Below are positions 2,554 to 59,303 of a stretch of 64,000 nucleotides of DNA, piece by piece (positions within the stretch are counted from its first letter, which is position 1; each line of letters begins with the position of its first letter). The DNA lies in assembly GCF_009674605.1 (NCBI RefSeq), contig NZ_WKJO01000001.1, positions 2,790,001 to 2,854,000 on the forward strand. The letters are read 5' to 3'. The notes under the pieces are model-generated. The model searched no databases, was not told where the DNA came from, and saw only the letters and a list, made by a program, of their open reading frames with translations. Made by a program: the position numbers and the translations under genes. The stretch is from Haloferax litoreum (lineage in GTDB: Archaea; Halobacteriota; Halobacteria; Halobacteriales; Haloferacaceae).

Positions 2554-2668
2554 CCTGCAGTTCTTTCGGTGTCGACGCAGTCCTATTCGACTCTACTGCG
2601 CTCTCGATATCAACGCTGATAACAGCTCGGGTAGATTTATGTCGCCTGCTTCGAATTCTCTCACCGAA

Positions 2669-2753
2669 ACGGTACGATGCTCGCGTGTGACATCTCGAGT
2701 AGCGTTCTGCGCTACCCAACCCAAGTCGGGGGACTTGGGGGACGTCGTACCGT
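2669..2753 (+). promoter_or_regulatory. cloverleaf-like structured leader upstream of the FlaD/E gene
   Basis: A perfect 9-bp inverted repeat, ACGGTACGA (2669-2677) and TCGTACCGT (2745-2753), closes a region holding three hairpins: CTCG/CGAG at 2680-2699, GTAGCG/CGCTAC at 2699-2715 with a TTCTG loop, and CCCAAGTC/GACTTGGG at 2720-2739 with a GGGG loop. A TATA-like GATTTAT at about 2635-2641 would start transcription near 2665, at the element's 5' edge. A strong Shine-Dalgarno GAGGTGA (2763-2769) and the ATG at 2773 follow. It lacks the T-loop of a tRNA. The fold is read by eye. Confidence 0.55.
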
Positions 2754-2772
2754 CCCGAACACGAGGTGACCT

Positions 2773-3382: not shown

Positions 3383-4516
3383 ATGACAAACAACGCCGTC
3401 GACTCGGACGTGCCAGATAGTATGGCCGACTCCGCAGCCTCAACCGTTGACTCCGCAGCCTCAACCGTTGACTCCGCAGCCGCAACCGCCGACGACAGCG
3501 CCACGACACCGACGCCAATCGGCGTCAAACTCGGAAGCGCGAGGACCGTCTTCGTCTACGCCGACGAGGATGGTGACCCGGAGACGGTGCAGACCCGTTC
3601 GTGTCTCGCAGTCCCCGAGAACTCGAACCAGTTCTACTACGGTGAAGACGCCGAAGCGAAGTACCCGGACAAGACGATGTACTTCCTCGACGGCGGCGTT
3701 CCCGGTGACGCCGAGCGAGCGGAACTGACAGAGCGGTTCTTCACAGAACTCTGTGAGGCTCACGACCTGCCGGCGGACAGTGCCGTCGTGTTCGCGATTC
3801 CCGCAGTCGACGACGACTGTGGTCTCGCCAACTTCAACACCATGGTCGACGCGAGCGACATCGGTGACGCGGTCACCCGCGGGTTCCCCGAGTCACTCTG
3901 TGGGTCGATTCCAGCGGTCGGTGACGACCTCTCGGCCATCGACCAGATATTCGCCGCCATCAACCTCGGCGCGACCACGCTCGAAGCGTCCGGGTACAGA
4001 CACGGCGAACGACTCGCGCCGTTCTCGACTGCCGCCGCAACCGGAAACGACGTCGACCAGGCTATCGTGGACGCCATCGACGACGAGACGGACGGCCGGG
4101 TGGAACTCGCCCGAACCACCGCCCGCGAGTACAAAGAGACGTACGCCGACTTCGACTCGTTCGAACCCTTCACCGACGTGTTCGACCACCCCGAGGAGGG
4201 CGAACAGGAGTTCACCGTCGAACGTGGGCTGATGGGGCCACTCGACGCCTACCTCGACGACGTCGTCGACGAACTCACGACCGGGTTCTTCTCGCGACTC
4301 GCGACCCAGCACATGCGGTCGTACCAACTGTCGGTCACCCGACCGCTCGTCGTCACTGGTGGGATGGCCTGCATCCCCGGCCTCGCCGACGAACTGGCGA
4401 GTCGATTGAGTGAGGAACTCGATAGAGACGTGACGGCAGTCACCGCAGACCACCCCGAAGTCGCCGCTGCCGAAGGTGCCTACCGTCTCGCAGAACGACT
4501 CGCCGCCACTCGCTGA
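3383..4516 (+). CDS. actin/MreB-like ASKHA-fold protein in the taxis locus
   Basis: 377 residues. After a 45-residue Ser/Ala/Asp-rich repetitive tail the protein begins TPIGVKLGSARTVFVYADEDG, matching the phosphate-1 strand of actin-like ATPases. AAINLGATTLEASGYRHGE fits the phosphate-2 motif and VVTGGMACIPGLADEL the adenosine motif of MreB/FtsA relatives. The ATGACA start is preceded by AGGTGG. It stands between two FlaD/E-domain genes and beside a sensor kinase, so a role in placing or organising the polar motility or chemoreceptor apparatus is plausible but is inference. Haloarchaeal actins (salactin, volactin) are known; whether this is an orthologue cannot be told here. Confidence 0.75.
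   Translation: MTNNAVDSDVPDSMADSAASTVDSAASTVDSAAATADDSATTPTPIGVKLGSARTVFVYADEDGDPETVQTRSCLAVPENSNQFYYGEDAEAKYPDKTMYFLDGGVPGDAERAELTERFFTELCEAHDLPADSAVVFAIPAVDDDCGLANFNTMVDASDIGDAVTRGFPESLCGSIPAVGDDLSAIDQIFAAINLGATTLEASGYRHGERLAPFSTAAATGNDVDQAIVDAIDDETDGRVELARTTAREYKETYADFDSFEPFTDVFDHPEEGEQEFTVERGLMGPLDAYLDDVVDELTTGFFSRLATQHMRSYQLSVTRPLVVTGGMACIPGLADELASRLSEELDRDVTAVTADHPEVAAAEGAYRLAERLAATR
3428..3490 (+). repeat. three tandem 21-bp repeats inside the actin-like gene
   Basis: Units at 3428-3448, 3449-3469 and 3470-3490. The first two are identical and the third differs at a few bases. In frame they encode DSAASTV, DSAASTV and DSAAATA, making a low-complexity N-terminal tail. The near-identity of the DNA, not only the protein, suggests recent slippage expansion. 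Confidence 0.9.
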
Positions 4517-7008: not shown

Positions 7009-7458
7009 ATGCCGCTCGACCCAAGACATCACGACGTTGCAGAACTCCACCACGCTGTCGATGGAAGGAGCGATGCGTCGTTCGATTGGGTCGACGACCC
7101 TGTGGACCACACCTGGCGCGAGACCGTCTACCACCGGCTCCTCGCGACGACGGCGATGATAACCTCAGACGGCGACGTGTACCTCGAATCAATTCCACGG
7201 ACACCGCGCGCCGAGAACGTACTCCTCGACTGGTGTGTCCACCTCGTCGAACGTCTCGGTGGGCGCGGGGCACTCCTCATGGTCTCGTACTACCGAGACA
7301 TCGGCTGGATTGGCGACGACCCCCACGACACGATTCACGAGCGAATTCTCTCCTTCACCGTGCCGTCTGACTTCGAAGACGCACCGACAGAAGAAGACCA
7401 CGTCCAGAGTCTCTCGTACATCGCCCGACTCGCGTCGATGGACGACGAGGACGACTGA
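7009..7458 (+). CDS. archaellar FlaD/E-domain protein, copy 2
   Basis: 149 residues. After a variable 50-residue head comes the same domain as the protein at 2773: YLESIPRTPRAENVLLDW, then SYYRDIGW and a C-terminal SLSYIARLASM that matches SLVYVARLSSM of the paralogue. Both therefore belong to the FlaD/E family that connects taxis input with the archaellum. The TATA-like GCTTAATC near 6977 suits a short-leader or leaderless start at 7009; an ATG at 6987 is in another frame. Divergence of the head regions suggests different partners. Confidence 0.72.
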   Translation: MPLDPRHHDVAELHHAVDGRSDASFDWVDDPVDHTWRETVYHRLLATTAMITSDGDVYLESIPRTPRAENVLLDWCVHLVERLGGRGALLMVSYYRDIGWIGDDPHDTIHERILSFTVPSDFEDAPTEEDHVQSLSYIARLASMDDEDD

Positions 7459-55465: not shown

Positions 55466-55627
55466 TGGACTCGCCGGGACTCCCGCGAGCGAAGCGAGGG
55501 GGAGTACGGCGAGTCCACGAACGACTGACGGAGCGAAGCGACGGAAGGAAGTGAGTGGACTCGCCGGGATTTGAACCCGGGGCCTCTCCCATGCCAAGGG
55601 AGTGATCTACCCCTGATCTACGAGCCC
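55466..55627. repeat. 162-bp direct repeat, copy 1 (contains tRNA-Ala)
   Basis: It is nearly identical to 58919-59080, differing at two positions in the part outside the tRNA. It includes a full tRNA-Ala gene and about 90 bp on its 3' side. That flank itself starts with a copy of the last 14 nt of the tRNA (TGGACTCGCCGGGA), so each repeat carries a tRNA plus an internal tail duplication. The two copies are 3453 bp apart in the same orientation. Confidence 0.93.
55556..55627 (-). tRNA. tRNA-Ala (anticodon GGC), copy 1
   Basis: A 72-nt cloverleaf on the minus strand: acceptor GGGCTCG/CGAGTCC (one G-U) with discriminator A, D-stem GATC/GATC, anticodon stem CTCCC/GGGAG with loop TTGGCAT giving anticodon GGC, and T-arm CCGGG-TTCAAAT-CCCGG. 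It is identical to the gene at 59009-59080. Confidence 0.97.
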
Positions 55628-58918: not shown

Positions 58919-59080
58919 TGGACTCGCCGGGACTCCCGCGAGCGCAGCGAGGGGGAGTACGGCGAGTCCACGAACGACTGACAGAGCGAAGCGACGGAAG
59001 GAAGTGAGTGGACTCGCCGGGATTTGAACCCGGGGCCTCTCCCATGCCAAGGGAGTGATCTACCCCTGATCTACGAGCCC
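58919..59080. repeat. 162-bp direct repeat, copy 2 (contains tRNA-Ala)
   Basis: Same length and orientation as 55466-55627, with two substitutions, both outside the tRNA. The DNA between the copies, 55628-58918, holds five genes. This suggests duplication or insertion of the segment at the tRNA-Ala locus. No integrase remains within it. Confidence 0.93.
59009..59080 (-). tRNA. tRNA-Ala (anticodon GGC), copy 2
   Basis: 72-nt cloverleaf identical base for base to the tRNA at 55556-55627: acceptor GGGCTCG/CGAGTCC, loop TTGGCAT with anticodon GGC, T-arm CCGGG-TTCAAAT-CCCGG. It is divergent from rps15, whose leader begins about 100 bp away. Confidence 0.97.
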
Positions 59081-59144: not shown

Positions 59145-59303
59145 GGTTTAACCCGGCGCGCGTGGAGAATCCAACGGGAATCCAGCACGGCCGCAAATCT
59201 GACGTGCCCACATGAGTGGGCTTGGGATTGCGGTAGTGCCCCAGCAGTCGCCAGTGCGACTGCGGGCACTCGTTTCTGCGGTCAGTGCGGTTCCAACCCG
59301 CAA
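59145..59303 (+). promoter_or_regulatory. rps15 promoter and hairpin-rich 5' leader
   Basis: TATA-like GGTTTAAC (59145-59152) would start transcription near 59178, about 128 nt before the ATG. The leader contains three perfect stems: GCCCAC-ATGA-GTGGGC (59206-59221); a two-part stem AGTGCCC/GGGCACT (59235-59241 with 59264-59270) and GCAGTCG/CGACTGC (59244-59250 with 59257-59263) with a CA bulge and CCAGTG loop; and TGCGG/CCGCA (59286-59302) ending 3 nt before the start codon. No Shine-Dalgarno is visible. Confidence 0.5.

Follow-up and report, generated by a model that had tools for sequence, protein, structure and literature searches.

Introduction

Several described systems can be compared with the element analysed here, a folded leader in front of the gene for an ArlD-like protein (arlD) in Haloferax. 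In a reporter study in H. volcanii (Brenneis and Soppa 2009; PMC2636863), stabilising a 5'-UTR stem-loop abolished translation and destabilising it made translation constitutively high; repression by the stem-loop depended on growth phase and also required the 3'-UTR. The hp transcript (PMC2636863) is, like that of arlD, a haloarchaeal mRNA, and its stem-loop controls translation. However, hp has one small hairpin of -7.4 kcal/mol, whereas the arlD leader has a genus-conserved four-helix fold of about -42 kcal/mol, with a proposed function. The S15-Halobacteria ribosomal protein leader (RF03143) is likewise a structured cis leader in haloarchaea, but it belongs to another class of gene, and its model of 66 positions does not match the arlD leader. 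Bacterial riboswitches that switch through P1 share with arlD a closing P1 with a 3' strand for which another partner near the ribosome site is conceivable; the arlD leader, in contrast, matches no known aptamer class, and any ligand or switching would be hypothetical. Three hairpins and a terminal closing stem also recall the tRNA cloverleaf, although neither ARAGORN nor the Rfam tRNA model finds a tRNA at the arlD leader. Leaderless mRNAs make up 72% of the protein-coding transcripts of H. volcanii (PMC4983044), and the role of the Shine-Dalgarno (SD) sequence in haloarchaea is disputed (PMC8241225). Among the papers searched, none reported an arlD leader or UTR.

Results

The analysed stretch of 64,000 nucleotides (hereafter the window) belongs to a Haloferax genome, and a genome search provided 14 congeners, among them H. 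profundi, H. mucosum, H. larsenii and H. gibbonsii. The resulting comparison set of 15 genomes contains 13 distinct leader sequences. The original prediction placed a FlaD/E-domain protein downstream of the fold, and the PF04659 match bears this out. The gene order corresponds to that of the ArlD/HVO_1202 unit after CheY/C/D of H. volcanii (PMC13286277). The product, which includes the FlaD/E domain, is best called ArlD-like. The salactin-family gene is probably the second gene of the arlD unit and would be co-transcribed with it. Its N-terminus carries a tandem repeat, GACTCCGCAGCCTCAACCGTT, at 3420-3490. The N-terminal region of ArlD, in this genome and in the congeners, contains a repeat of the RFDD/RYDDG type whose copy number differs among Haloferax species; the arlD-like open frames of related genera are much longer than those of Haloferax.

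Table 1. Position of the features of the arlD locus in the window
Feature	Position	Strand	Remarks
cheY	470-838
CheC-family protein gene	3' end 2019
cheD	2044-2553
CsmR-type operator TATCAACGCTGATA	2608-2621	+	exact TATCA(N4)TGATA
TATA element TTTATG	2636-2641	+	begins 19 bases beyond the first T of TGATA
Predicted transcription start, arlD	2666-2667	+	from the TATA spacing of three leaderless-looking CsmR-type promoters
P1, 5' strand	2669-2678	+	10 pairs with 2744-2753
P1, 3' strand	2744-2753	+	in predicted folds of longer transcripts also pairs with arlD codons 5-9
P2 hairpin	2685-2700	+	2685-2689 with 2696-2700 (4 pairs, one mismatch between them); RNAalifold register
P3 hairpin	2701-2713	+	2701-2705 with 2709-2713
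P4 hairpin	2720-2739	+	2720-2727 with 2732-2739, perfect 8 bp
Shine-Dalgarno GAGGTGA	2763-2769	+	three bases before ATG
ArlD-like protein, 167 aa	2773-3276	+	PF04659 Arch_fla_DE, E=1.1e-26
Salactin-family protein	3383-4516	+	PF25229, E=3e-136
Second FlaD/E-domain gene of the locus	7009-7458		without arlD-type leader

Binding of CsmR itself has reportedly been demonstrated by others in H. volcanii. Its ChIP-seq consensus, TATCA(N4)TGATA (PMC13286277), lies beside the TATA element of arlD, and this sequence match places the arlD promoter among the CsmR-regulated ones. The operator precedes arlD in 15/15 Haloferax, and most of the 20 relatives that were read have TATC(N5)TGATA with the spacing unchanged. 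A scripted search gave a constant distance between TGATA and TATA in 33 of 35 sequences, a different GATA having been picked in L058 and L085, and the geometry of the arlD promoter is constant over the relatives read. Five CsmR sites followed by a TATA element were found in this genome, against none for a control pattern. The window contains two exact operators, before cheY (411-424) and before arlD, both with the TATA element 28 bases from the start of the palindrome. The start codon of cheY follows exactly 31 bases after TATA, and at three other CsmR-type promoters of the genome, that of cheY included, the ATG is found at TATA+31, +30 and +31; these three genes look leaderless. The ATG of arlD is at TATA+137. 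Since the similar promoters place the ATG at TATA+30 or +31, arlD transcription is predicted to start just before the stem, which would place about 106 bases of mRNA ahead of the start codon and P1 2-3 bases from the 5' end; the assignment of the fold to the 5'-UTR rests on this start, predicted from promoter geometry. The TATA-like element said earlier to lie about 26 bp upstream of the stem is TTTATG, with the stem 27 bases beyond its end, and the same geometry argues against a start downstream of 2753. A separate observation concerns an archaellin-like gene with a CsmR-type promoter (L124, G000:C1:2789045-2789078, minus strand), which starts at TATA+71 and would carry a leader of about 40 bases that contains a GTGGGG...CCCCAC repeat.

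The SD sequence GAGGTGA agrees at 7 of 8 positions with GGAGGUGA, the haloarchaeal consensus given in PMC8241225. It is present in 10 of the 13 distinct Haloferax sequences, the others having GAGGAGA (1) or GAGGTAA (2), and it sits outside P1-P4, about 10 bases after P1. The original prediction regarded it as an exception among mostly leaderless genes; a leaderless majority fits the published 72%, but the SD string is not unique, as GAGGTGA-N(1-8)-ATG was found seven times in the window against 0.8 expected.

The closing stem P1 joins ACGGTACGA (2669-2677) to TCGTACCGT (2745-2753) through nine perfect Watson-Crick pairs, correct to the base as originally proposed, and is lengthened to 10 pairs by U2678-G2744 (11 pairs in this species). 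The perfect 8-bp hairpin noticed at the outset is P4. Of the three hairpins said to be enclosed by the stem, P3 and P4 stood, whereas the one preceding them, for which no coordinates had been given, did not stand as the minimum-energy fold draws it: none of the mapped substitutions keeps pairing in that register. It was replaced by the shifted register of P2, in which every cell with letters is paired in every Haloferax sequence, P2 being a weak helix whose register was drawn from the same alignment that served to score its pairing. The 11 bases 2682-2692, CGCGUGUGACA, are invariant across Haloferax. The GGA after P2, considered as a K-turn/L7Ae-type site (a tandem G.A beside a three-base bulge), is by eye absent from L001, L003 and L004. 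A pairing of UCACC (2661-2665) with GGUGA of the SD is kept in most species but was also rejected, because UCACC precedes the predicted start and the pairing is missing from H. larsenii and H. elongans (L005, L006).

The fold was evaluated with Vienna parameters, which hold for 37°C and 1 M salt and may misdescribe a cell with molar KCl: positions 2660-2780 (121 nt) gave -47.4 kcal/mol against -38.5 for shuffled sequences (z = -2.6), and a 97-nt piece gave z = -3.4, with values as low in 21 of the 2132 window/strand samples. One sequence by itself thus gives weak evidence, the fold being modestly unusual (top 1% of windows), notable and not compelling. Over the 13 distinct Haloferax sequences the mean z was -2.9, with all values negative.

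An alignment of the upstream regions of the 15 Haloferax covers everything between the CsmR site and the start codon; mean pairwise identity is 80% in both leader and promoter, compared with 31% in the upstream spacer and 68% at the third codon positions of arlD. The leader varies in length by a few bases, at the junctions and just ahead of the SD, and contains no conserved start codon; it is therefore not coding sequence. A covariance model built on the Haloferax leaders found one copy per genome in 15/15 (E <=1.5e-17), only before the ArlD-like gene and beside the salactin gene. With P2 in its shifted register, P1-P4 are paired in 98.9% of 349 cells, a level attained by 0 of 500 shuffles, and sliding the partners by 1-3 bases lowers pairing to 28-45%. 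P1 is paired in 130 of 130 cells (13 sequences), and the eight substitutions mapped on the tree of the genus all keep its pairing, largely via G-U. In P3, 98.5% of cells are paired and a two-sided change from A-U to G-C was seen; two of six substitutions keep pairing, or two of three once the three at a closing pair since dropped are left aside. P4 is paired in 97% of cells, with five of eight substitutions pair-keeping and one pair appearing as G-C, A-U and G-U. The closing and 8-bp stems, for which compensatory changes had been proposed as the check, therefore stay paired across Haloferax, even though covariation is modest, with changes on both sides at two pairs (A-U/G-C in P3, G-C/A-U in P4). 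The strands of P1, P3 and P4 are asymmetric, with 24 G-U cells against one C-A cell, and sense-strand scores of the model are 87-110 bits, whereas the reverse strand does not exceed 23. Because all eight P1 substitutions preserve pairing, largely through G-U, it is the secondary structure of the sense RNA that is conserved, as in a cis-acting leader.

The absence of a known riboswitch and of tRNA hallmarks, noted from the sequence at first reading, is in line with the family searches. The element has no match to any Rfam family. Rfam 15 gave no riboswitch-class match at it with E up to 10, nor at ten related loci with E up to 1. ARAGORN and the Rfam tRNA model detect three tRNAs elsewhere in the window but no tRNA or tmRNA at the leader. 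RF03143 has its one match in the window at 59174-59239, next to a tRNA-Ala, and none at the arlD leader. As the same scan finds this S15-Halobacteria leader, which served as positive control, the Rfam library is able to detect haloarchaeal leaders. Two copies of tRNA-Ala(GGC) lie on the same strand about 3.4 kb apart (55555-55627 and 59008-59080), with equal Rfam scores.

Beyond Haloferax, the predicted leaders of Halogeometricum (5 species) and of a related genus, g8 (2 species), are 65-86 bases long with GAGGTGAGG before the ATG. The g8 leaders have a 7-8-bp stem at the corresponding place; the closing stem of Halogeometricum is 5-6 bp and not above chance in a closing-stem test across lineages, where cross-lineage pairings do equally well. 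The Haloferax covariance model gave no sensible match to the leaders of either genus, so that homology of the folds would be conjectural. Most Halobellus have a leader of 36-48 bases with one small hairpin and no GAGGTGA, and Salinigranum has neither such a hairpin nor a long leader with GAGGTGAGG, its 25 bases being without structure. The leaders of relatives thus share position and promoter with Haloferax, with undetectable sequence likeness. Outside the genus, among 171 genomes of the family and 394 of the order, the model gave only weak matches (E 0.001-0.1 per genome), which were treated as chance.

Discussion

Our main reading, to which we assign a probability of roughly 0.6, is that arlD mRNA carries a cis-acting structured 5' leader, most likely with a translational role. 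Transcription from the CsmR-type promoter would begin at about 2666, and the first 88 bases or so would fold into a four-way junction formed by P1 to P4, followed about 10 bases later by a strong SD. Such a fold may impose a defined and partly restrained state on the ribosome-entry region. ArlD output could then be set post-transcriptionally, while genes with the same type of promoter, such as cheY, look leaderless. The leader would most likely restrain, gate or time the synthesis of ArlD, as the 5'-UTR stem-loop does for translation in the H. volcanii reporter study; there may also be a signal that lifts this putative effect on translation, and perhaps an influence on the salactin gene. A riboswitch, an sRNA target or a protein site, all named in the original prediction, are candidate forms of such control.

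The resting state may be one other than P1, because predicted folds that include 75 coding bases lose it in most species. A two-state switch, of the riboswitch kind or gated by a protein, would have the 3' strand of P1 pair either with the 5' end, which forms P1 and leaves the ribosome site outside, or with arlD codons 5-9 (GGACGANUACGAC), a ligand or protein choosing between them. Consistent with this, P1 is lost in eight of nine longer predicted Haloferax transcripts, the printed folds include the helix between P1-3' and the codons, and in Halogeometricum and g8 the consensus folds of the leaders show the 5' end paired to the SD. The native coding sequence is also more disruptive to P1 than 83-98% of random coding starts, which amounts to about 0.02-0.17 per species for species that are not independent. 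However, the protein sequence (Tyr-Asp, UACGAC) dictates these codons, which puts the helix beyond a covariation test, and no known riboswitch class matches; we consider the switch possible but doubtful. Its fuller version, in which the P1 3' strand moves between the mRNA 5' end and the opening codons in response to a signal or an archaellum protein and motor assembly is thereby set post-transcriptionally, is speculative and rather improbable; if true, archaeal motility would have a natural RNA switch. It is also unlikely that the leader is a passive stabiliser or spacer, whose 5'-terminal stem blocks exonucleases and presents the SD without regulation. The closeness of P1 to the predicted 5' end and the position of the SD outside P1-P4 would suit such a role, but unpaired or weakly paired bases (CGCGUGUGACA and a GGGG loop) are conserved more strongly than a generic stem would require.

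A stand-alone small RNA or a cheD terminator would agree with the position between cheD and arlD. We hold this very unlikely, as the element has its own promoter upstream and runs directly into an SD and ATG, and P4 is followed by G with no U run. That the inverted repeats are instead a DNA site for a transcription factor can hardly be credited, even though they adjoin a real operator motif: they lie downstream of the predicted start, and the substitutions from U-A to U-G and from A-U to G-U preserve RNA pairing while breaking DNA symmetry. Finally, 9-mer inverted repeats are common in this GC-rich DNA, 78 positions of the window having such a partner within 80 bases, but a chance fold is ruled out for practical purposes by the 15/15 conservation (13 distinct sequences), the mean z of -2.9 and the pair-preserving substitutions.

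The conserved fold suggests that arlD in Haloferax is preceded by an RNA control element not described before. Control of haloarchaeal motility has been described mainly at transcription, through CsmR and the KaiC-like CirA. A folded arlD leader would bring RNA-level control to a component of the archaellum motor, in a genus amenable to genetics, and would offer a natural test case for structured leaders with a strong SD where 72% of protein-coding transcripts are leaderless.
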